Shown here piece by piece: positions 1 to 9,937 of a DNA stretch of 9,937 nucleotides. The position numbers and the translations under genes are program-made. The notes below the pieces were generated by a model. That model was not told the DNA's origin. It saw only the letters and a program-made list of their open reading frames with translations, and did no database searches. The stretch comes from Streptosporangiaceae bacterium (GTDB lineage Bacteria; Actinomycetota; Actinomycetes; Streptosporangiales; Streptosporangiaceae). The stretch is taken from assembly GCA_030052355.1 (NCBI GenBank), contig JASIGS010000223.1, positions 1-9,937 of the forward strand. Direction: 5' to 3'. Position 1 is the first letter of the stretch, and every line of letters starts with the position of its first letter.

Positions 1-885
1 GTGGTCGAGGCGACCGGCCCGGACGTGACCGGCCTGGCACCAGGCGACTTCGTGATCCTGAACTGGCGTGCCGTGTGCGGCCAGTGCCGGGCCTGCCTGC
101 GCGGCCGTCCGTGGTACTGCTTCGCGACCCACAACGCCGCGCAGAAGATGACGCTGACGGACGGCACGCAGCTGTCGCCGGCGCTCGGCATCGGCGCGTT
201 CGCGGAAAAGACGCTCGTCGCCGCCGGCCAGTGCACCAAGGTCGACCCGGCGATCAAGCCGGAGGTGGCCGGGCTGCTCGGCTGCGGCGTCATGGCGGGC
301 CTCGGCGCGGCGCTGAACACCGCGGCCGTCAGCCGCGGCGACTCGGTCGCGGTGATCGGCTGCGGCGGAGTCGGCGACGCGGCGATCCTCGGCGCCAGCC
401 TGGCCGGTGCCCGGAAGATCATCGCGGTGGACGTGGACGACAGGAAGCTGGAGTGGGCCCGCCAGTTCGGTGCCACCGACACCGTGAACTCGCGCGCGGC
501 CGACCCGGTGGACGCCATCCGCGCCCTCACCGAGGGGAACGGCGCCGACGTCGTGATCGAGGCCGTCGGCCGGCCGGAGACCTACAAGCAGGCGTTCTAC
601 GCCCGTGACCTGGCCGGCACCGTCGTGCTCGTCGGCGTCCCGACTCCGGAGATGCAGCTCGACCTGCCGCTGCTCGACGTGTTCGGTCGTGGCGGGTCGC
701 TGAAGTCCTCGTGGTACGGCGACTGCCTGCCGACGCGCGACTTTCCCATGCTCGTCGACCTGCACCTGCAGGGCCGGCTGCCGCTGGAGAAGTTCGTGTC
801 GGAGACGATCGGGATCGACGGGGTCGAGGAGGCGTTCGTGAAGATGCAGCGCGGGGAGGTGCTGCGGTCCGTGGTCGTGCTGTGA
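1..885 (+). CDS. mscR: S-(hydroxymethyl)mycothiol dehydrogenase (mycothiol-dependent formaldehyde dehydrogenase), 5'-truncated by the window edge
   Basis: Zinc- and NAD-dependent medium-chain dehydrogenase that oxidises the spontaneous formaldehyde-mycothiol adduct, a cytosolic formaldehyde detoxification step that can also reduce S-nitrosomycothiol. Seen here: the structural-zinc cysteines C26, C29, C32 and C40 in a C-x2-C-x2-C-x7-C arrangement; C95 in [10 protein letters not shown] as a catalytic-zinc ligand; the nucleotide-binding loop GCGGVG at 120-125; and the acidic residue D144 ending the second Rossmann strand. [12 protein letters not shown] and the stretch around [19 protein letters not shown] closely match my memory of mycobacterial MscR. 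The family is about 360 residues and 294 are visible. The first catalytic motifs (GVCHTD, GHE) are missing, so the first GTG is almost certainly an internal valine and the gene starts upstream. Its stop overlaps the next start by 4 bp, so translation is probably coupled. A related class III-like alcohol dehydrogenase is the main alternative. Confidence 0.92.
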
Positions 886-1604
886 CGCCCGCGCCCATCC
901 GGGTCGCGATGTGGTCGGGCCCGCGGACGATCTCGACCGCGCTGATGCGGTCGTTCGAGAACCGGCCGGACACGATCGTCGTCGACGAGCCGCTGTACGG
1001 CTACTACCTCGCGCACACGTCGGTGCAGCACCCGGGCCGGGACGAGGTCATCGCGAGCATGCCGGCCGACTGGCGCGTGGTGCTGCGCGAGCTGACGCAG
1101 GCTCCGCTGCCGGACGGCGCGTCGGTGTACTACCAGAAGCACATGACCCACCACCTGCTGCCCGAGATCGACCGGGCCGCGTTCGCCGGGCTGACGCACG
1201 CGTTCCTGATCCGCGACCCGCGCCAGCTGCTCGCGTCGTACGCGCGGGTCAGGTCGCAGCCGGTACTGGCCGACCTCGGGCTCGAGCAGCAGGCGGAGAT
1301 CTTCCGGTCGTTCGGCGGACCGGTCATCGACTCGGCCGACATCCTGCGCAACCCGCGGGCCGCGCTCGGGGCGCTCTGCGACGCGCTCGGCGTGCCATTT
1401 GATCCGGCCATGCTGTCCTGGCCGCCTGGCCCGCGGCCGTCCGACGGGGTGTGGGGCCCGTACTGGTACGACAGCGTGTGGCGATCCACCGGCTTCGGTC
1501 CTTACCGGCCGGCGTCCGGCGAGCTCGCCCCGCACCTCGAGCCGCTCGCCGCGCAGTGCGAGCCGTTCTACGCCGAGCTCAGGGCCCACCGGTTGATCCC
1601 GTAA
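882..1604 (+). CDS. Sulfotransferase-like P-loop protein (240 aa)
   Basis: Small cytosolic protein of the sulfotransferase fold; substrate unknown. The GTG start at 882 overlaps the mscR stop as GTGA; an earlier in-frame start (711) would lie deep inside mscR and is rejected. Seen: strand-loop WSGPRTIST at residues 11-19, in the place of the PAPS 5'-phosphosulfate-binding loop; DEPLYGYYL at 35-43; and [13 protein letters not shown] at 108-120, which has the Arg-Asp-Pro...Ser pattern of the 3'-phosphate-binding motif. The tail has the distinctive [14 protein letters not shown] (183-196) and WRSTGFGPY (200-208). These blocks resemble the N-terminal domain of plant proteins named branched-chain-amino-acid aminotransferase-like, in which this domain precedes a fold-type IV aminotransferase; a matching aminotransferase lies at 9121. 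Real PAPS-dependent activity is inferred, not shown. The gene ends in two consecutive TAA codons (1602-1607). Confidence 0.85.
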
Positions 1605-1689
1605 TAAGTAATTGCCGTGCCTTTACCGCCATTTGCTTGTTGTAGCGGCCACAATGGATTGCCGTCGAAGTTACGAACGGGGGGCCACC
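1605..1689 (+). promoter_or_regulatory. AT-richer gap and ribosome binding site before the secreted propeller gene
   Basis: This 85-bp gap is visibly less GC-rich than its surroundings, which suits a promoter for the following gene, but I find no convincing -35/-10 pair with 16-18 bp spacing. A G-rich run (GGGGGG, 1680-1685) lies 4 bp before the ATG at 1690 and can serve as the SD sequence. An alternative TTG at 1612 in the same frame would place 26 extra residues before the signal peptide and has no SD. Confidence 0.4.
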
Positions 1690-2889
1690 ATGAAGCTCAC
1701 AGTTGGCGGCACCGCGCTGGGGCTGGCCGTTGGCGCATTAGCGCTGGGTTGCGCGGTAGCGTCGGCGCCTGCTCAGGCGGCCACGACCGGATGGCGCGTC
1801 TACGAGCAGGTCCCGGTGGGCGGGTACATCGCGGAGCTGACGTCGGTCTCGGTCGTCAGCGCCGGCGACGCGTGGGCGGTCGGCGACTCGTTCGACGATG
1901 TCGGCACCGGCCCGGCGATCCTCCTGCACTGGACCGGAAAGGCGTGGAGTCACGTCAAGCTGCCCGCCAAGGTTGCCGCGTTCTGGAACGCTAACGGCGG
2001 CGGGCAGGCGGTGGACGTGGTCGGCGCCTCTTCCGCGAGCAACGTCTGGGCGTTCGACGGCAGTGGCGGCTACATCCACCTGGGCAGCGGGGGATGGACG
2101 TCTGGCATGGTGCCGGGGACCGCCGGCGGCTTCCTTCGGATCCTGACCGTGTCGGCTGTCAAGGTCTTCAGCCCGACCGACGTGTGGATCTTCGGATGCA
2201 TCCTCACCGGCGACCACTTCGCGGATGCCATCCCGTACGCCGACCACTTCGACGGCCGGAAGTGGGTAAGGACGGCGTTCCCCGGATCTGGCGGCGTGGC
2301 TAGCGTGAGCGCCATCTCCGCGCGCGACATATGGGCGGTGGCGGGTCCGAGTAGTGCGTCCACGGGGGTCGGAACGGCGAGCGTCGTGCGCTGGAACGGC
2401 ACCAGCTGGCAGCCGGTCACGGTGCAGCCGCCGAAGCTGCCGGTGGGTGCCGGCTGGACCGCCATCGACGCCAGGTCCGACGGCGACGTCTTCGTGGCAG
2501 GCGGCGGGGAGCCAGGGAGCGGCGAAGGTAAGGGCACGCCCGAACGGGTTTACCACTGGACCGGCAAGCGCTGGTCGGTGACGGCACTCCCGGCCCGGGC
2601 ATCGGCCAAGACGTTCACCATGGTCAGCCTCGTGGCGGACGGTTCGGGCCTGTGGGGTCTCGACTCGATCGTCATCACCCCCATGCAGGGCGGGCCGCTG
2701 CCGCTCGTGACGCCGTGCACGACGATCTGGCACTTCACCGGGACCAAGTGGACGGGCCCGACGGTAGTCGGTGGCGGCGGCGCGTGCCTCTACCAGCTCG
2801 CAAGCACTGCGGGCGGAAACTCAACCTGGGGCGTCGGAACGAATGGGGATAACGGCCTGGTCGTCCTGACCGGGGCCCTGCCGCGCTAG
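1690..2889 (+). CDS. Secreted repeat protein, probable seven-bladed beta-propeller (399 aa)
   Basis: Function unknown; predicted to be exported and extracellular. An N-terminal Sec signal peptide is clear: MK, a hydrophobic core at about residues 8-24, and an A-x-A site ASAPAQA with cleavage likely after residue 30. The mature protein consists of degenerate repeats of about 45-55 residues, each with a D-x-W-A-V/F-G-like strand followed by an H/R-W-x-G-x-x-W strand. Visible pairs are DAWAVGD (60-66) with HWTGKAW (80-86); NVWAFDG (118-124) with a degraded partner; DVWIFG (164-169) with HFDGRKW (186-192); DIWAVAG (213-219) with RWNGTSW (234-240); DVFVAGG (266-272) with HWTGKRW (289-295); LWGLD (321-325) with HFTGTKW (348-354); and STWGVG (378-383). 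About seven units suggest a closed propeller, as in many uncharacterised secreted actinobacterial proteins. No catalytic residues were recognised. The ATG at 1690 is chosen because it gives an intact signal peptide and an upstream G-rich SD. Confidence 0.85.
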   Translation: MKLTVGGTALGLAVGALALGCAVASAPAQAATTGWRVYEQVPVGGYIAELTSVSVVSAGDAWAVGDSFDDVGTGPAILLHWTGKAWSHVKLPAKVAAFWNANGGGQAVDVVGASSASNVWAFDGSGGYIHLGSGGWTSGMVPGTAGGFLRILTVSAVKVFSPTDVWIFGCILTGDHFADAIPYADHFDGRKWVRTAFPGSGGVASVSAISARDIWAVAGPSSASTGVGTASVVRWNGTSWQPVTVQPPKLPVGAGWTAIDARSDGDVFVAGGGEPGSGEGKGTPERVYHWTGKRWSVTALPARASAKTFTMVSLVADGSGLWGLDSIVITPMQGGPLPLVTPCTTIWHFTGTKWTGPTVVGGGGACLYQLASTAGGNSTWGVGTNGDNGLVVLTGALPR

Positions 2890-2904
2890 AACGGAGGCCC
2901 ATGC

Positions 2905-2982
2905 GGCCTCAGGGCCTGCGGCGCCGGCTTACACCGTGTCGCAGGCCTCAGGGCCTGCGGCGCCGGCTTACACCGCGTCGCA
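2905..2982. repeat. Tandem direct repeat, two 39-bp units
   Basis: Two units lie back to back at 2905-2943 and 2944-2982 with a single difference (T at 2937, C at 2976). Each begins GGCCTCAGGGCCTGCGGCGC. The junction creates an inverted repeat, CGCAGGCC / GGCCTGCG (2940-2947 / 2952-2959), with a 4-nt TCAG loop. It lies 15 bp after the stop of the propeller gene. Near identity points to a recent duplication. Confidence 0.9.
2940..2959 (+). terminator. Possible hairpin terminator after the propeller gene
   Basis: A perfect 8-bp GC-rich stem with a TCAG loop begins 51 bp after the stop codon at 2889. No T-run follows, but actinobacterial terminators often lack one. It could equally be a by-product of the tandem duplication. 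Confidence 0.3.
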
Positions 2983-3413
2983 CGCCGACGAGGCCAACCA
3001 GCACCAAGACGGCGCAACCGCAGATAGCGGTGCCGCATGCGACCGGAGGCCGGGTCACAGCCAGAGACCCACCACGCCCCGGCAGATCGGCCAGCCAGGC
3101 AGGAGCGCCGCGCCACGCGCTAGGCCGACGATGACGCCCGTGTCGCCGGCGGCTCGCCGCCGTCAGTGCACGCACTGCCGGTGGGCCGTGCGCATCGCGG
3201 CGCACGCCCGTGCTGTTCATCTGATCTCCCGGTGCCGCTAATGGCCCAGTCTTAGCCTGGGCTAAAGAGCTCTCCACGGGATCTGCCAAATGCACTATGA
3301 AGCTCCTCAGATTGGCGCATCGCCCCCTCAGACGGCCCAGACGGGGGCAGGCTCGTCCCTGGGCGCGCTGTAGCTTTCAGAGCGGAGAGCCTGTGCAGTG
3401 GCCGCTGCTGCCG

Positions 3414-6398
3414 TTACGCTCGTGACTCCTGCGCGGCACCGAGCCTGTGGACCACCGCCGCGGCCTCGACCCGCCCGCCGACGCCGAGTTTGGCGAGGAT
3501 GCTCGACACGTGCACGCTCACGGTCTTGGCGCTGATGAACAGGGCCTGACCGATTTCGGTGTTGGACCGGCCCGCCGCCACCAGCAGCAGCACCTCGCGC
3601 TCGCGATCGGTCAGCCTGAACCTGGCCAGTTCGTCAGGTTGCCCGGCCGCCCCATCTGGCGCCGGGTCCAGGCTGAGCCGGGCTCGCCGGGCTAGCGCCG
3701 CTGCCTCGGCTGCTATCGGCTCCGCACCGATCCGGTTCGCGATCGCGTGTGCCTCCGCGACCGCCGCTGCCGCGGCGGCCCGGTCGGCGTGGCCGCCGCT
3801 ACAGTGCGCCTCAGCCTCCCGGAGCAGCGCGTAAGCGAGCAGGTACGGCTCCTGTGCTTGCTGGAAAGCCTGCACCGCCGCAGACCACGCCGCGCCTTCA
3901 CCCACGCCGTTGGCCCTGGCCTGCTCGGCCGCGACCATTACCCGGTAACCACACCAGAGCGGGGCGGGCGTGAGCAGCCCGGCCGCGATGCTCGCCAGGC
4001 GGTCGCAGCGCTCGCGCACGTGGCCGGCGATGTCCTCACGGCGGTCTCTCGCCCTGGTTGCCTCGTCGGCCTCGACGCGCATTCCCAGCCACACCAGCGG
4101 CCAGGCGTACCGTGAAGCCCACGACGGCGCCTCGGCTGTCAGGTCGGCCGCGACCGCAGCCCGGGCAGCGGCCAGATCGCCCCTGGCCAGCGCGATCATG
4201 CCCTCGGCGAAACGCAGCGGCATCATGAACTGAACATCGGGAATCTCGCCAAACGCGTGCCGGAAGCTGTGCAGCTCGCTGACCGCCTCCCCGTACCGCC
4301 CGCGCAGGAGCGCGAGCTCGGTCCGGAACTGATGCAGCACAGCGCTAAACACTCCCTCCGGCTCCAGCCGCAGCGCGCCCGCAGTCAGCTTGTCCGCCTC
4401 CGGCCAGCGGCCCAGTCGCAGCAACGACTCCGCCTGGTTGCCCATGAGGTAGCAGCCGTCCGTCCGGGCCATGCCCACCTGCTCCGCAAGGCGCACGCCG
4501 TCGCTCGCGACTTCCAGTGCCTCGGCATGCCGGCCCATCAGTTCCAGTACGTCGGACAGGTCGATATAGCCACGCAGCGCGACGACCGGCAGGTCCAGCT
4601 CGTGAGCCAGATCGATGCCCGACCGCAGTTGGCTAAGGCCAGAGTCCGCCGGACGCAGATACGACATTGCCGACCCCAGCGTTATGGCTACATCGGCCTC
4701 CACGTCCCGCGCGCAGACAGTGCGGGCAATCGGCAGCGCGCGCGTGGCCACTTCTGCGGCTCGTTCCATGTCAGAAAATGCCAGCAGCATCCGCGCCAGC
4801 GACGCCAGCACCCTCGCGCGCTCCTGGCTGGCCCCGGCCGAAAGCAGCAGCGCGAGTGCCTGCTCCAGCGTCGCGGCGGCGACGGCCGGCTGGCCCGCAT
4901 CGCACTGAGCCTGGGCATACTGCTCGAGAAGCAGCGCCCGGCGCGCCGGATCGGTGCCGTCAGGCAGCTGCGCGAGCGCGTCGCTGAGCAGAGACTGTGA
5001 CCGGCCGATCGCGCCTGACTGGTACGCCGCTTCGGCCGCAAGGCGGCTCAGCTCGACCTGATCCAAGCCAGTCCGCTGCTCCGCGTCGTCCACCTGGGGC
5101 CAGATTTCCAGCGCTCGCTCCAGATGGCGCAGTGACTCTGCCGGGGCGTAAGTCGCCAGGGCGTGCCTGGCCGCGTCGATCGCGGCGGGCAGCGCTCGCG
5201 GCAGGTCGTGCGCCGCGTACCAGTGATAGGTGAGCGCGGCCGGCAGCGCGGTTTCATCGCCAGCCAGCCCTGGATCTGCTCCGAGCGCCGTGCCGTACGC
5301 TGCGTGCAGGCGGACCCGCTCTCCCGGCAGCATGTCCTCGTACACGGCGTCCCTGGTCAGCGCGTGCCGGAAGGCATAGCCCTGGCCGGCCCGATCGACG
5401 AGGAGCACCTGGCTCTCCACGACCTCGTGCAGCGTTGAATACAACTCGGGCTCGCCGAGTCCCGCCACCGCGAAGAGCAGCCGCTCGGCGACTGTACGGC
5501 CGGCCACCGCGGCTGTTCGCAGCAGTCGCTGCGCGTCCGGGCTCAGCGCGTCCACCCGGCTCAGCAGCACGTCCCGTACCGACGGCGGCAGCCGTGCCAC
5601 GTCGCGGTCGCCGCGTACGGCGCCGGCCAGCTCCTCGACCAGGTAGGCGTTCCCGCCGGACCGGTCGAAGATCTCCGCGGCGACGCTCGGCGCCGGGTCG
5701 CTGCCGAGAATCGCGGCGAGCTGAGCGGTCACCTCGCCGAGATCGAACCGCTCGACTTCGATCCGGTCGACGAAGCGTGCCCGTTCCCACGCCATCAGCA
5801 GCGGCCGGAGCGGATGCCGCCGGTGCATCTCGTCGGAGCGGTAAGTGGCGACCAGGAGAACCCGTGCGCCGCGCAGCGACCTGACCAGGAACGCGGTCAG
5901 GTCCAGCGTGGACTGATCGGCCCAGTGCAGGTCCTCGAGCACGAGCAGGACCGGCTGCAAGGCGCTGAGCCTGGCCAGCACGCCGAGCACCAGCTCCAGC
6001 AGCTGCCCCTTCTGAATGTCCTCGCCGACGGGTCCGGTTACCGTGTCGGGTGCCAGTTCCGGCAGCAGGCGGGCCAGGCTCGGTCCGGCGAGGCCAAGCA
6101 CCGCGGTTAGCTCACCCGGCGGCATGCTCCGGGCGAGCGTGCGCAGCGCATCGACAAGCGGCGCGAGCGGCAGGCCCTCGGCGCCCAGCTCGGCACACTG
6201 GCCCGTCAGCACGAGGAACTCCGCCGCGGCCGCGCGATCGGCGAGCTCGCCGATGAGCCGGGTCTTGCCGACTCCCGCCTCACCGCCGACGATCGCGAAC
6301 GCCGACTGCCCGCTTGCGGCCCGCTCTAATAGCGCGGTCAGCGTGCTCAGTTCCGCTCGGCGCCCGATGAAGACCGGGCTAACCAAACTCGCGCTCAT
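3414..6398 (-). CDS. LAL-family LuxR-type transcriptional regulator with N-terminal AAA/STAND ATPase (994 aa)
   Basis: Large ATP-dependent DNA-binding regulator of the MalT/LAL type, usually an activator and common in actinobacterial gene clusters. Numbering is from the ATG at 6398. The N-terminus begins with the FIGRRAEL block typical of these ATPases (about 10-17). Walker A is GGEAGVGKT (38-46) and Walker B is VLLVLEDLHWAD (150-161), with further NTPase-like sequence to about residue 370. A long alpha-helical, alanine-rich TPR-like middle follows (about 400-900). The C-terminal GerE/LuxR HTH starts at FRLTDREREV (927 on), with the recognition region ISAKTVSVHVSSILAKLGV. Length fits the family's 900-1000 residues and there is no frameshift. 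A TTG two codons upstream (6404) is the alternative start; neither has a strong SD. The gene lies 63 bp downstream of the exporter on the same strand, so it may be read from the exporter promoter. Ligand and targets are unknown. Confidence 0.93.
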   Translation of the reverse strand: MSASLVSPVFIGRRAELSTLTALLERAASGQSAFAIVGGEAGVGKTRLIGELADRAAAAEFLVLTGQCAELGAEGLPLAPLVDALRTLARSMPPGELTAVLGLAGPSLARLLPELAPDTVTGPVGEDIQKGQLLELVLGVLARLSALQPVLLVLEDLHWADQSTLDLTAFLVRSLRGARVLLVATYRSDEMHRRHPLRPLLMAWERARFVDRIEVERFDLGEVTAQLAAILGSDPAPSVAAEIFDRSGGNAYLVEELAGAVRGDRDVARLPPSVRDVLLSRVDALSPDAQRLLRTAAVAGRTVAERLLFAVAGLGEPELYSTLHEVVESQVLLVDRAGQGYAFRHALTRDAVYEDMLPGERVRLHAAYGTALGADPGLAGDETALPAALTYHWYAAHDLPRALPAAIDAARHALATYAPAESLRHLERALEIWPQVDDAEQRTGLDQVELSRLAAEAAYQSGAIGRSQSLLSDALAQLPDGTDPARRALLLEQYAQAQCDAGQPAVAAATLEQALALLLSAGASQERARVLASLARMLLAFSDMERAAEVATRALPIARTVCARDVEADVAITLGSAMSYLRPADSGLSQLRSGIDLAHELDLPVVALRGYIDLSDVLELMGRHAEALEVASDGVRLAEQVGMARTDGCYLMGNQAESLLRLGRWPEADKLTAGALRLEPEGVFSAVLHQFRTELALLRGRYGEAVSELHSFRHAFGEIPDVQFMMPLRFAEGMIALARGDLAAARAAVAADLTAEAPSWASRYAWPLVWLGMRVEADEATRARDRREDIAGHVRERCDRLASIAAGLLTPAPLWCGYRVMVAAEQARANGVGEGAAWSAAVQAFQQAQEPYLLAYALLREAEAHCSGGHADRAAAAAAVAEAHAIANRIGAEPIAAEAAALARRARLSLDPAPDGAAGQPDELARFRLTDREREVLLLVAAGRSNTEIGQALFISAKTVSVHVSSILAKLGVGGRVEAAAVVHRLGAAQESRA

Positions 6399-6461
6399 GG
6401 TCAAAAGGTGCCACAGGATAGCGCCGCCTGGCTAACAGATCCGCGGTCCTGGCGCAGCGGC

Positions 6462-7973
6462 CTAGTCGGCGAGGATGCGAGGCACGCTGCTGGCTTGATC
6501 CACCAGTTCATCAGCGCCAATGAGGGCGTCCTCGGAGACGGCGGTCCGCGGCAGCATCAGCGCGAGCACGCCGCACAAGGCAAACGCGCCGATCGCGTAC
6601 GGTGCCGCGTGCTGCAGTGCCTCGGCGAACGTGTGACCGCTGCCGACCTGGTCGAAGAACACGGTGCCGAGCAGCGCGACGCCGATCGCGCCGCCCAGCT
6701 GCTGCGCGGTGCTGAACACGCCAGACGCGCTGCCTGCGGCCTCCGCCGGGGCGGCTGCCAGCACGACGTTGACCAGCGGGATGACCAGCAGCGCGAGGCC
6801 GGCACCGGCGATGACCAGGCCAGGAACGATGGGCCACGGACTGCCGTTCGTGCCCACGTGCGGCACGAAGGCGTCGACGGCCACTATCCCGCCAGCCATC
6901 AGCACGGCACCGGCGATCAGGATCGACCGGCCGTACTTCTGCGCGAGCGGCGTAGCGGCGGGCGCGCCCAGGAAGCTGCCGACGCTGAACGCGACCGCCG
7001 TCAGGCCGGCCTTCAGCGGCGAGAAGTGCTCGCCGATCTGCAGCCACAGCGCCAGCAGCAGGAAGAACCCCTGCAGGGCGGCCGCGAACGCGGCCTGCAC
7101 GCCGAGGCCGGCCGCGAACGCGGGGACCCGCAGCAGCCGGGCGCTCAGCAGCTCAGCCGTCCGCCGCGATGACCGCAGCGACGGACGCCGCACCTCAGCG
7201 ATCGCCACCGCGGACAGTCCCGCCACACCGGCCGCAATAAGCGGCCACACCCAGGCCGGCCAGCCGAGCTGCCTGCCCTCTAGCAGCGGGTACACGATGG
7301 CGACCATGCTCCCGGCCAGCACAACGGCACCCAGGTAGTTCGGGCGCTTCGCCACGTCGTCCCTGGTCTCCGGCACCACCCGGGTCCCCGCGGCGAATGC
7401 CGCGACGGCGATCGGCACGTTCACGAAGAACACGGCGCGCCAGCTCCAGCCGAACAGGTTGGCTTCGGTCAGCACGCCGCCGAGCAGCAGGCCGAGTGCC
7501 GAGGCGAAGCCGAGCATCGCACCGTAGACGGCGAACGCCTGGCCTCGCTCCTTCATCGAGGTGAAGATCACCCGGAATGTCGCGAGCACCTGCGGCGCCA
7601 TGCACGCAGCGGCCGCGCCCTGCACGAACCTGGCCGTGATCAGCTCGGCGCCGGTCGCCGACAGCCCGGCACACAGGCTGGCGACCCCGAACACGCCGAC
7701 GCCCAGCAGGAACACCCGCTTGCGGCCGAACCTGTCGCCCATGCTTCCGGCCACAATCAGCGCGGCGGCGAACGCCAGCATGTAGCCGGACACCACCCAT
7801 TCCAGCTGTGTGGCGGTCGCGCCCAGACTCCGCCGGATCGTGGGCAGCGCCACGTTCACGATGGTCACGTCGATCATGTCCATGAGCGCGCCGACCATCA
7901 TCACGGTCGCCGCCAGCCAGCGGCCCGAGACGTGGTGATCCCCTGCCGCGGCGCTGACCTTGCTGACCCCCAC
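6462..7973 (-). CDS. MFS drug/metabolite exporter, DHA2 (EmrB/QacA-type), 503 aa
   Basis: Inner-membrane proton-driven antiporter, probably exporting a toxic or self-made small molecule. Length and hydrophobic pattern fit 14 transmembrane segments. Visible family motifs are MDMIDVTIVNVALP (31-44, motif D1 of the 14-TM drug exporters), the motif-A loop GSMGDRFGRKR (76-86), RFVQGAAAACMAP (115-127, motif B), and GFASALGLLLGGVLTE (155-170), a motif-C-like antiporter helix in which the usual GP is GL. The GTG start at 7973 is supported by a GGAGG 5 bp upstream (7983-7979 on the minus strand). The gene is divergent from a TetR gene, with paired palindromes just upstream, so repression by that TetR protein with induction by a substrate is the natural model. 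Substrate cannot be read from sequence. The LAL gene follows downstream. Confidence 0.92.
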   Translation of the reverse strand: MGVSKVSAAAGDHHVSGRWLAATVMMVGALMDMIDVTIVNVALPTIRRSLGATATQLEWVVSGYMLAFAAALIVAGSMGDRFGRKRVFLLGVGVFGVASLCAGLSATGAELITARFVQGAAAACMAPQVLATFRVIFTSMKERGQAFAVYGAMLGFASALGLLLGGVLTEANLFGWSWRAVFFVNVPIAVAAFAAGTRVVPETRDDVAKRPNYLGAVVLAGSMVAIVYPLLEGRQLGWPAWVWPLIAAGVAGLSAVAIAEVRRPSLRSSRRTAELLSARLLRVPAFAAGLGVQAAFAAALQGFFLLLALWLQIGEHFSPLKAGLTAVAFSVGSFLGAPAATPLAQKYGRSILIAGAVLMAGGIVAVDAFVPHVGTNGSPWPIVPGLVIAGAGLALLVIPLVNVVLAAAPAEAAGSASGVFSTAQQLGGAIGVALLGTVFFDQVGSGHTFAEALQHAAPYAIGAFALCGVLALMLPRTAVSEDALIGADELVDQASSVPRILAD

Positions 7974-8007
7974 TGCCGCCTCCGATGATCGAACTACATT
8001 TCGCTGA

Positions 8008-8039
8008 TCGAACAGCGTTCTATATCGAACAACGTTCTA
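8008..8039. promoter_or_regulatory. Twin palindromic operators, probable TetR-family binding sites
   Basis: Two 15-bp sites, TCGAACAGCGTTCTA (8008-8022) and TCGAACAACGTTCTA (8025-8039), differ at one central base. Each contains the dyad GAAC-N3-GTTC, and they are offset by 17 bp. A third half-site in the same orientation lies at 7989-7994, within a repeated TGATCGAAC (7986-7994 and 8005-8013). CGCTGTTC at 8083-8090 is the exact reverse complement of part of the first site. The pair lies 25-56 bp upstream of the exporter's SD, where a repressor would cover the promoter. Assignment to the neighbouring TetR protein is inferred from position. Confidence 0.65.
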
Positions 8040-8152
8040 GCATGGGATCGCCGTTTCGGTCAAACTCGGTTCGCTACTAGTACGCTGTTCGTGCAGGCGA
8101 ACTCGGACTCGCCTGCCAGCCGGGACGAGCCAGGACCAGGGCTTGACCGTCG

Positions 8153-8200
8153 GGGTGTGTGCATCTGGTCCGGCTATAGGCGGACCAGATGCACACACCC
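8153..8200. repeat. Perfect inverted repeat: 20-bp stem, 8-nt loop
   Basis: The left arm GGGTGTGTGCATCTGGTCCG (8153-8172) is the exact reverse complement of the right arm (8181-8200). The loop GCTATAGG contains the small palindrome CTATAG. No T-run follows on either strand, so it is not a canonical intrinsic terminator, although U-less hairpins do terminate in some actinobacteria. It lies 121 bp before the TetR start and could be an insulator, an attenuating leader hairpin, a protein-binding site or the relic of a small mobile element. Confidence 0.9.
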
Positions 8201-8303
8201 TCGGCGATCATGTACCTGTTCGGAGCGTGCTGGCCGCCTGCTACATCCCTTTCGCCTAGGTATGCGAGGTTAGGAAGCGAAGCCGAGGCGGCGGGCTGCG
8301 CGC

Positions 8304-8325
8304 GGAGGGAGCGATGCCGAGGTGA
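8304..8325 (+). promoter_or_regulatory. TetR ribosome binding site with overlapping three-codon ORF
   Basis: GGAGG (8304-8308) is ideally placed 5 bp before ATG CCG AGG TGA (8314-8325), whose stop overlaps the GTG start of the TetR gene at 8322. The same SD is 13 bp from that GTG, which is too far for efficient direct initiation. Reinitiation after a Met-Pro-Arg peptide, or a small sequence error, are the two explanations I see. Confidence 0.45.
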
Positions 8326-9089
8326 CGCTGGGTCCAGAAAAGCTGCCTCCGCCGCCCGGCCAGCGGCTGCCGGACAGGTCAGCGCGCCGGCGCCGCGAGC
8401 CCATCAGCCGCGAGGCGATCGTCGCCACCACCATCAGGCTGCTGGATGCCGAGGGCCTCGATGCGCTGAGCATGCGCCGGATCGCCGAGGAGCTCGGCAC
8501 CGGTGCCGCCTCGCTGTACTGGCACGTCGGCAGCAAAGACGGCCTGCTCGACCTCGTCTTCGACGAGATCATCGGCGAAGGCCTCGGCGAGCGCGAGCTG
8601 CCCGAGCCCGTTCCTGGCAAGTGGCGCGAGCAGGTCAAGGAGGTCGCCAGGGAACAGCGTGCCCTCTGCCTGCGCCATCCCTGGATCGTCCGGGTGTCGA
8701 TCGGCCGCATCCCGATGGGACCGAACGCGCTGCGCTACTCCGAATTTGTCCTGGCCATCCTCGTGTCCGGCGGACTGCCGCCGGCCCTGGCCGTGCAGGG
8801 CCATCACCTGCTGATCGCGACCATCAACGGCTTCACGCTCGACGAGACCGGAGTCGGCGACAACCCCGCGGAGGAGATCGAGGCGGGCTTGCGGCAGGCG
8901 GGGAACGCGGCGCGCGACTACCTGGCCTCGCTGCCGGCCGACACCTTCCCCAACCTGGTCGCGTTCGCCGACGAGTTCACCTACATCGACCGGGACGAGA
9001 GCTTCGAGCTGCTCCTCGATATCTTCGTGGATGGGCTAGCCCGCCTGGCCACTCTTCGCGACGGATCCGGGGGTCGGCCCCCGGGCTGA
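8322..9089 (+). CDS. TetR/AcrR-family transcriptional repressor (255 aa)
   Basis: Dimeric ligand-responsive repressor. The N-terminus is a basic, proline-rich extension (about 1-28, with RSARRRR at 19-25). The TetR HTH follows: SREAIVATTIRLLDAEGLDA (29-48), then LSMRRIAEELGTGAASLYWH (49-68) with recognition helix around GAASLYWHV, and KDGLLDLVFDEI (72-83) starting helix 4. The long C-terminal domain (about 95-245) resembles the TetR_C_1 type found in tetracycline-repressor-like proteins. The GTG at 8322 is the only usable in-frame start after an upstream stop at 8271, giving a normal N-terminal domain. It is divergent from the MFS exporter, which it likely represses through the GAAC-N3-GTTC sites, and lies 31 bp upstream of the aminotransferase gene, with which it is probably co-transcribed. 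Its ligand may be the exporter substrate. Confidence 0.93.
   Translation: MTLGPEKLPPPPGQRLPDRSARRRREPISREAIVATTIRLLDAEGLDALSMRRIAEELGTGAASLYWHVGSKDGLLDLVFDEIIGEGLGERELPEPVPGKWREQVKEVAREQRALCLRHPWIVRVSIGRIPMGPNALRYSEFVLAILVSGGLPPALAVQGHHLLIATINGFTLDETGVGDNPAEEIEAGLRQAGNAARDYLASLPADTFPNLVAFADEFTYIDRDESFELLLDIFVDGLARLATLRDGSGGRPPG
9067..9084 (+). terminator. Strong GC hairpin at the 3' end of the TetR gene
   Basis: CCGGGGG (9067-9073) and CCCCCGG (9078-9084) pair perfectly around a TCGG loop, within the last seven codons before the TetR stop. No T-run follows. It could reduce read-through into the aminotransferase gene or act as an mRNA stability element; the codons themselves encode a flexible Gly/Pro tail. 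Confidence 0.35.
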
Positions 9090-9120
9090 CACAACGGCTG
9101 GCACAACACGGAGGCGACAG

Positions 9121-9937
9121 GTGCTGCAGACCTTTGACGAACGCAATCGCGACCTCATCGTCAGCGTCGGCGGAAGGCTGGCACACCGGGACCAGGCGGG
9201 TGTCAGCCCGTTCGACTCCGTCGTGCAGGGCGGCGACGCGGTGTGGGAAGGGCTGCGACTGTACAACGGGAAGATCTTCCGGCTCGACGCGCACCTGGCC
9301 CGGCTGCGGCGGTCCGCCCAGGCGCTGGCGTTTGAGAAGATCCCGTCCGACGACGAGATCATCGCGGAGATCCGGCGCACGCTGGCCGCTAACAGCATGA
9401 CGGACAACGTGCACATCCGGCTGACGCTGACCCGCGGCGTCAAGATCACGAGTGGCATGGACCCCAGGCTCAACCAGCACGGCCCCACGCTGATCGTCCT
9501 GGCCGAGCACAAGCCGCCGGTATACGACACCGGCGGCATCACGCTCATCACGTCCAGCGTGCGGCGCAGCGCCCCGGACAGCCTGGACCCGAAGATCCAT
9601 CACAACAACCTGCTCACCTCGATCCTGGCCAAGATCGAGGCGAACGTGGCGGGCGCGGATGACGCCATCATGCTTGACCAGCGCGGTTTCGTCGCCGAGA
9701 CCAACGCGACGCACGTCTTCCTGGTCACCGGGGGCGTGCTCGGCACCCCGACGACCGCCGCCTGCCCGGAGGGCATCACCCGGCAGGCAGTGCTCGACCT
9801 GGCCGCCGACGCCGGGTTGCAGTGCGCAGTCGGCGATTACAGCCTGACCCAGCTCTACGCGGCGGACGAGGTGTTCGTCACCGGCACGATGGGCGGTCTC
9901 GTACCGGTGCTGGCGGTCGACGGCCGGACGATCGGGG
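9121..9937 (+). CDS. Fold-type IV (branched-chain-type) PLP aminotransferase, 3'-truncated by the window edge
   Basis: Cytosolic PLP enzyme of aminotransferase class IV, the group of branched-chain aminotransferases, D-amino-acid aminotransferase and aminodeoxychorismate lyase. The GTG start at 9121 has GGAGG (9110-9114) 6 bp upstream. 272 residues are visible and the frame is open at the edge; the family is about 290-320 residues. Seen: FDSVVQGGDAVWEGLRLY (31-48); R100 in HIRLTLTRG; DPKIHHNNLL (156-165) with K158 as the probable Schiff-base lysine; DAIMLDQRGFVAETNATHVF (181-200) with E193 as the probable PLP pyridine-nitrogen partner; PEGITRQAV (216-224); and the phosphate-site loop TGTMGGL (254-260). 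The DSVVQGG and PKIHHNN signatures resemble the C-terminal half of plant branched-chain-aminotransferase-like fusion proteins more than E. coli IlvE, so the substrate should not be assumed to be leucine, isoleucine or valine. Probably in an operon with the TetR gene. Confidence 0.9.
   Translation, partial: MLQTFDERNRDLIVSVGGRLAHRDQAGVSPFDSVVQGGDAVWEGLRLYNGKIFRLDAHLARLRRSAQALAFEKIPSDDEIIAEIRRTLAANSMTDNVHIRLTLTRGVKITSGMDPRLNQHGPTLIVLAEHKPPVYDTGGITLITSSVRRSAPDSLDPKIHHNNLLTSILAKIEANVAGADDAIMLDQRGFVAETNATHVFLVTGGVLGTPTTAACPEGITRQAVLDLAADAGLQCAVGDYSLTQLYAADEVFVTGTMGGLVPVLAVDGRTIG

Follow-up and report, generated by a model that had tools for sequence, protein, structure and literature searches.

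The contig JASIGS010000223.1 of a Streptosporangiaceae bacterium, analyzed here from position 1 to 9,937 (hereinafter the window), carries seven genes, two of which are our subject: one coding for a sulfotransferase-fold protein (ST) and another, separated from it by 7.5 kb, coding for a class IV aminotransferase-like protein (AT). A sequence-only reading of this DNA had singled these out as separate bacterial counterparts of the two halves of a plant fusion protein; both open reading frames, their coordinates, and the motifs quoted from them are indeed present in the translations, with the codons checked. The nearest named relatives are Streptosporangiaceae metagenome-assembled genomes. The features are listed below, beginning with the pair (PAPS, 3′-phosphoadenosine 5′-phosphosulfate; PLP, pyridoxal 5′-phosphate; MFS, major facilitator superfamily):

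882..1604, + strand: ST, sulfotransferase-fold protein, PF19798 (Sulfotransfer_5), 240 amino acids, GTG start
912..938, + strand: codons of WSGPRTIST, putative PAPS 5′-phosphosulfate loop (residues W11, S12, P14, R15, S18, T19)
1212..1238, + strand: codons of RDPRQLLAS, putative PAPS 3′-phosphate motif (R111, S119)
9121..9937, + strand: AT, class IV aminotransferase-like protein, PF01063, PLP fold type IV, GTG start, open at the window end
9598..9600, + strand: CAT codon (checked) of His160, aligned with the lysine that forms the Schiff base with PLP
9697..9699, + strand: GAG codon of Glu193, conserved in the His-type branch and expected to bind the ring nitrogen of PLP
1..885, + strand: S-(hydroxymethyl)mycothiol dehydrogenase, 5′ end cut (TIGR03451, 556.8 bits against a cut-off of 512.9)
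1690..9089: stretch probably inserted later between ST and AT, comprising the next four genes
1690-2889, + strand: secreted-looking protein, 399 amino acids, between ST and the LuxR regulator
6404-3414, − strand: AAA/LuxR regulator
7973-6462, − strand: DHA2-type MFS protein
8322-9089, + strand: TetR regulator

The GTG start of ST at 882 overlaps the stop codon of the upstream dehydrogenase (TGA at 883-885). The part of AT in the window amounts to 272 codons (9121-9936) and is 100% identical to the corresponding part of a full-length database copy of 299 amino acids (P0001). A family scan of the secreted-looking protein recovered no match above cut-off, and an Rfam scan of the window recovered none.

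ST belongs to PF19798 (195.2 bits, gathering cut-off 23.2), and fold comparison recovered the sulfotransferase fold. Residues W11, S12, P14, R15, S18, T19, K86, R111, P113, and S119 are common to the ST partners of AT-like proteins with histidine at the lysine column (His-type, like that of the window), of those with asparagine there (Asn-type), and of plant-type proteins, being the commonest residues in at least 90% of 63, 80% of 12, and 80% of 10 rows of the three groups. We presume the role of the WSGPRTIST loop from known sulfotransferases and that of RDPRQLLAS from the SULT enzymes; judged by sequence, these presumed PAPS motifs are intact.

Linkage in bacteria and fusion in plants

Profile searches of genome contigs with an alignment of His-type ATs yielded at least 574 relatives, of which the best 80, from at least seven phyla, were kept; the stretches around them (3.4 to 20.9 kb) were then searched with our own PF19798-type profile (E <= 1e-5). 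ST was detected on the stretch in 58 of these 80 loci, some of the misses being due to truncation given the varying lengths of the stretches: in 47 of the 58 it precedes AT on the same strand at a distance of at most 250 bp, in seven it is farther upstream, and in four it is on the opposite strand. By phylum, it was found in Actinomycetota (22/23), Planctomycetota (17/29), Pseudomonadota (11/11), Acidobacteriota (4/4), Armatimonadota (2/2), Gemmatimonadota (1/9), Verrucomicrobiota (0/1), and one unplaced genome (1/1). The 22 genomes with an AT and no ST on the stretch comprise 11 with PF19798 elsewhere and 11 in which none was found (eight of them Gemmatimonadota). A search of 14 control genomes found no PF19798.

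In an even sample of Actinomycetota (246 genomes, reduced to 245 by leaving out the centre, G001, which had itself been found by its AT), AT (E <= 1e-70) is present in 14 genomes and PF19798 (E 0.001) in 32. Fourteen of the latter have strong matches (E < 1e-39) and the other 18 have matches at 1e-22 or weaker, a threshold chosen after the gap in E values was seen. Strong ST and AT occur in the same 14 genomes (14/14 each way) and are adjacent in all of them, the profile matches being 20 to 156 bases apart (Fisher p=4.5e-23; counting all 32 PF19798 genomes, 2.1e-14; here and in the next sample the p values overstate independence, as the genomes are akin). An even sample of Planctomycetota (119 genomes, 118 without the centre, G005) has AT in 16, ST in 16, and both in 15 (Fisher p=7e-17), the exceptions being G384 with ST alone and G322 with AT alone (a weak match with one stop inside). 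In 13 of these 15 pairs both genes are on one contig; the matches are 22 to 211 bases apart in 11 of them and 2.2 and 3.1 kb apart in the other two.

In plants the two domains form a single chain. With a plant-type probe, for which the best 120 of 7,999 scored candidates were listed, all 120 listed matches carry PF19798 followed by PF01063, with both window halves matching; 88 are named, which we take to be all plants, and 32 are nameless. As the 120 are those closest to the probe, they establish the fusion as general among the listed plants rather than in eukaryotes at large. Each of the 120 has IHH in place of the lysine, as DSKIHH or DPKIHH. The Arabidopsis thaliana protein (P0137) is 37% identical to the window ST over 238 residues and 55% identical to AT over 291, so that both domains are related over their length and share the IHH motif. 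The fusion with ST first, as put forward in the sequence-only reading, is thereby borne out, and the plant matches of both proteins, which it had proposed to compare, converge on one fused protein related to both halves, in keeping with the proposed link. When the structure of P0137 was predicted as a single chain, the arrangement of its domains did not come out with confidence (predicted template modeling score, pTM, 0.51). Three plant proteins (P0140, P0227, and P0241; 922 to 928 amino acids) also carry PF10294, which we take to be a methyltransferase domain, and represent either true fusions or merged gene models.

Of the 120 rows listed for a query joining the two window proteins, 14 are bacterial or metagenomic proteins in which the two domains occur together (P0121-P0134), one from Phycisphaerae and the others genome or metagenome proteins; the sequences of 12 of the 14 were read. 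The ST half is complete (match to residue 235 or beyond) in seven (P0121-P0125, P0130, and P0132), and its match ends between residues 145 and 204 in the other seven, where the shortening may reflect a frameshift or assembly error. The fusion outside plants is thus real, but rarer and partly uncertain.

Taken together, adjacency, co-occurrence, and plant fusion support the shared pathway or complex postulated for the two proteins, and the proposed tabulation of co-occurrence shows the genes together and adjacent in Actinomycetota and beyond. We hold it as nearly certain that ST and AT constitute one functional unit, and regard the pair as an ancient two-enzyme unit whose genes have stayed neighbors in several bacterial phyla and form a single gene in plants.

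The missing lysine and the Asn-type sister branch

The reading of the second protein as an aminotransferase stands as to family and fold: AT scores 169.1 bits against PF01063 (cut-off 28.5), with the class IV profile and fold. It does not stand as to the catalytic lysine. In a locally gapless alignment, His160 meets the lysine of the IKSLNYL motif of the archaeal branched-chain aminotransferases (BCATs) 5mqz, 5cm0, and 5e25, and the column is His in 80/80 close relatives, a count that describes the His-type branch, since the search patterns were made from His-type rows without the His160 column. The following residue is His in 79/80 relatives, and the His160 column is also kept in an 11-row alignment including plants. 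We tried Lys158 as the catalytic lysine of a shifted alignment and rejected it, as it is Lys in only 71/80 relatives against 80/80 for His160, and the alignment with lysine-type enzymes has no gap there. E193, T220, and T256 (P0001 numbering) are invariant in two alignments and kept in at least 79/80 relatives, in line with a PLP-site glutamate and phosphate-cup threonines; these roles are assigned by correspondence rather than from a cofactor-bound structure, with Glu193 mapped by us to E194 of IlvE, as described in an excerpt of PMC9309667. Altogether, 103 AT columns are kept in at least 79/80 relatives from seven phyla, including the His, the Glu, and both Thr (the last three counted as Glu192, Thr219, and Thr255 in that alignment).

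Against the IlvE equivalog TIGR01122 AT scores 181.7 bits, below the cut-off of 245.55, the window holding 272 of its roughly 299 residues; plant P0137 scores 227.3 bits against the same model. The best NCBIfam matches of AT are BCAT models, and its relatives are named branched-chain aminotransferase in their source records. Nevertheless, with His in place of the Schiff-base lysine, AT is very probably not a standard transaminase.

The 14 pairs of the actinomycetotal sample have His at the lysine column in three and Asn in 11. In the 11 Asn-type ATs Glu193 is replaced by Thr (Thr or Ser in the Asn-type rows seen overall); the gene order is AT then ST in 11/11 Asn-type pairs and ST then AT in 3/3 His-type pairs. 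A PF01063 search of 12 genomes gave 34 matches, of which 30 were fetched as loci, three being unclassifiable fragments. ST accompanies AT in 11/11 His- or Asn-type loci (3.7 kb each), as it was bound to in genomes chosen for pairing; the informative part is the 16 lysine-type loci (3.6 to 3.7 kb each), none of which has ST on the stretch.

In phylogenetic trees, the His-type (98/95) and Asn-type (100/99) proteins each lie on one side of a branch. Both types together are set apart from the lysine-type with support of 98/91 in a first tree of 57 rows (13 of 70 were left out, namely three fragments, eight repeat loci, and two divergent lysine-type rows; the bootstrap had not settled) and 100/99 in a tree of 37 chosen rows, though the deep nodes are rendered less certain by the length of the lysine-type branches. 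In both trees the plant rows group within the His-type branch, next to L083 from Actinomycetota. This locus encodes a bacterial ST-AT pair (3023-4714), and its AT, which shares the motif LDSKIHHNNL with the plant proteins, is the nearest bacterial row to the plant fusions.

Among plasmids, 11 records have an AT match, and the eight stretches examined are all Asn-type by motif; the ST profile (E 0.001) had no match on these eight, which are thus exceptions to ST pairing. Amino-acid ABC transporter genes occur on six of the seven annotated stretches, directly beside AT in five (L128, L129, L130, L132, and L134) and nearby but divergent in one; in Ruegeria none is adjacent. A chloride channel protein gene is present on L128, L129, L130, and L134, and one for pyrroline-5-carboxylate reductase on L128-L130; these neighborhoods are possibly amino-acid breakdown clusters, perhaps releasing halide. 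Only part of the Asn-type branch is therefore ST-paired: its plasmid members, lying beside transporters, point to work in another setting as well, and the transporters make amino acids plausible substrates.

Gene neighborhoods of the pair

In the near relatives L005-L008, L010, L012, and L025 the genes for the mycothiol dehydrogenase, ST, and AT follow one another with no room for a further gene, and in L011 ST adjoins AT; L002 and L003 have about 1.6 kb without window homologues between the two, and the close relative L001 has the MFS and TetR genes there. As ST is thus adjacent to AT in 8/11 near relatives with both genes, the 7.5 kb gap of the window is probably a later insertion into a compact block. 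Closeness within 8 kb, which the sequence-only reading had counted in its favor, is accordingly better seen as the trace of a directly adjacent pair that was interrupted. The mycothiol context to which it had also pointed holds locally, with the dehydrogenase beside ST in the window and matches to it in 10/12 near Actinomycetota relatives searched; however, the dehydrogenase cluster reaches at most 12 of the 80 AT loci (the type of two, L046 and L062, being unconfirmed). The link with mycothiol does not extend beyond near relatives and is no general part of the pair.

A third partner did not emerge: over the 80 AT loci no other neighbor cluster exceeds 12 loci, and those phylum-spanning clusters to which a Pfam name could be given belong to large families of common occurrence (Zn dehydrogenase, ABC ATPase, protein kinase); in the 14 Actinomycetota loci no cluster occurs at three loci, the maximum being 2. 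Separately, in three of eight Gemmatimonadota loci the ST-less AT is directly preceded by a threonine synthase gene (TIGR00260 in L031 and L054, Pfam domains in L066; the neighbors of the other five were scanned in part), a possible substrate hint. Four plasmid relatives of ST were found, and the two examined both lie near cysC or cysC/cysD: these distant relatives, on plasmids of Streptomyces (L126) and Dolichospermum (L125), have sulfate-activation genes nearby, and in Streptomyces also peptide synthetase genes.

Proposed chemistry and comparison with known enzymes

Adjacency, fusion, and lysine loss together lead us to predict that the two halves share a substrate. The explanation that we find best as a whole, and somewhat favor, is a two-enzyme unit acting on one small molecule by sulfonation and lysine-less B6 chemistry. 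With PAPS as donor, ST would sulfonate a hydroxyl on a metabolite resembling an amino acid; AT would hold PLP or pyridoxamine 5′-phosphate (PMP) non-covalently, without the lysine link; and His160 may replace the lysine as acid/base, as in the sugar 3-dehydratases E1 and ColD. The likely outcome would be expulsion of the sulfate leaving group, by elimination or deoxygenation, rather than ping-pong transamination, although elimination of sulfate specifically is put forward only tentatively. A sulfate ester would ease the loss of the hydroxyl, as in CurM. An excerpt of PMC8987622 describes E1, ColD, and SpnQ as differing from their aminotransferase relatives by a lysine-to-histidine change, with the histidine serving as base and acid and likely starting the expulsion of the C3 hydroxyl.

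Other readings have to be weighed against this two-enzyme chemistry. It is rather improbable that the AT half is a pseudoenzyme, that is, a scaffold or sensor binding B6 or an amino acid that positions the substrate for ST or regulates it with no chemistry of its own: the lysine is lost in both branches, Glu193 also in the Asn-type rows, and the plant fusion would suit a scaffold. Yet plain scaffolds seldom keep an active site so strictly as the 103 conserved columns with their His, Glu, and Thr residues imply, and AT also occurs in the 11 genomes where no PF19798 was found and on plasmids with no ST nearby. We give about the same low weight to a slow aminotransferase, in which free PLP forms the external aldimine, His160 slowly transfers protons, and ST modifies the substrate or product. 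The presumed PLP-site residues kept in the His-type and the BCAT models as best NCBIfam matches would accord with it, as would the ability of SpnQ, likewise changed from Lys to His, to transaminate without its reductase; the same excerpt of PMC8987622, however, reports no transaminase activity for E1 and ColD under similar conditions, AT scores below the IlvE equivalog cut-off, and the lysine is lost throughout the His-type branch.

A reversed order, with ST sulfonating the product of AT, seems less probable still; the 11 Asn-type pairs of the actinomycetotal sample are all written in that direction, but ST precedes AT in the three His-type Actinomycetota pairs, in 54/58 His-type loci with ST, and in the plant-type fusions, and gene order is in any case weak evidence for reaction order. 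The 7.5 kb separation by four genes might suggest that the two are mere chance neighbors in the window, but the genome samples refute this: the genes are found together and adjacent in one phylum after another, and for two fixed loci in a 6 Mb genome the probability of lying no more than 8 kb apart is about 0.003.

As to precedent, each half belongs to a known family, and the lysine-less state of the Asn branch is already implicit in PDB entries. In the open-licence literature (subscription journals not being covered) we found, mostly by title and opening of the abstract, no paper that deals with the function of the ST-AT pair, with the histidine branch and its connection to ST, or with the correspondence of bacterial pair and plant fusion, nor any under the locus names At5g27410 and At3g05190; the name of the plant protein occurs in twelve papers. 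Our results point to a two-step reaction common to bacteria and plants that has not been described before. A bolder version, which we regard as speculative and rather unlikely, is a widespread pathway, common to plants and numerous bacterial phyla, that strips an amino-acid-like metabolite of a hydroxyl by PAPS sulfation and then sulfate elimination on a lysine-less, His-based B6 enzyme. Such an enzyme would be the counterpart of E1/ColD in fold type IV, with a dedicated partner installing the leaving group. Many plants carry the fusion under the label of branched-chain aminotransferase, though without the residue such enzymes need, and the bacterial pair makes the question of the plant protein testable in small genomes. 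A PAPS-primed B6 reaction, if true, would provide a new enzyme pairing and a function for an orphan plant protein family.

Among known systems, the plant branched-chain-amino-acid aminotransferase-like proteins 1 and 2 have the same two domains and IHH as the window pair, in one chain rather than two genes. IlvE and D-amino-acid aminotransferase (DAAT) share the Pfam family and fold of AT but keep the Schiff-base lysine, and none of the 16 lysine-type loci has ST on its stretch. The closest solved structure by sequence is an aminotransferase-like protein of Variovorax paradoxus (7z79), which, like AT, is without the lysine but has Asn at that column and Ser aligned with Glu193; its motif LRLNSHSRLN is that of the plasmid Asn-type members beside amino-acid transporters, not ST. 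The entry 9j32 is the N174K mutant of this protein, changed at the same column as His160, which suggests that its depositors saw the missing lysine. For ST, the only two PDB sequence matches up to E 1, also among its tied best fold matches, are CurM (4gbm) and the olefin synthase ST (4gox), in which sulfation makes a sulfate leaving group. Unlike the window ST, these are embedded in polyketide synthases, where a thioesterase-linked elimination follows without a B6 enzyme partner. E1, ColD, and SpnQ are probably of another fold than AT, namely fold type I, and act on sugar nucleotides; the fold matches listed for the AT domain of the plant homologue are all class IV type enzymes, and the Pfam match of AT is Aminotran_4. 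We claim the resemblance to E1/ColD by analogy, for the mechanism only. Within that limit they are, like AT, aminotransferase relatives in which the catalytic Lys has become His, theirs using PMP (as given in the excerpt of PMC8987622).

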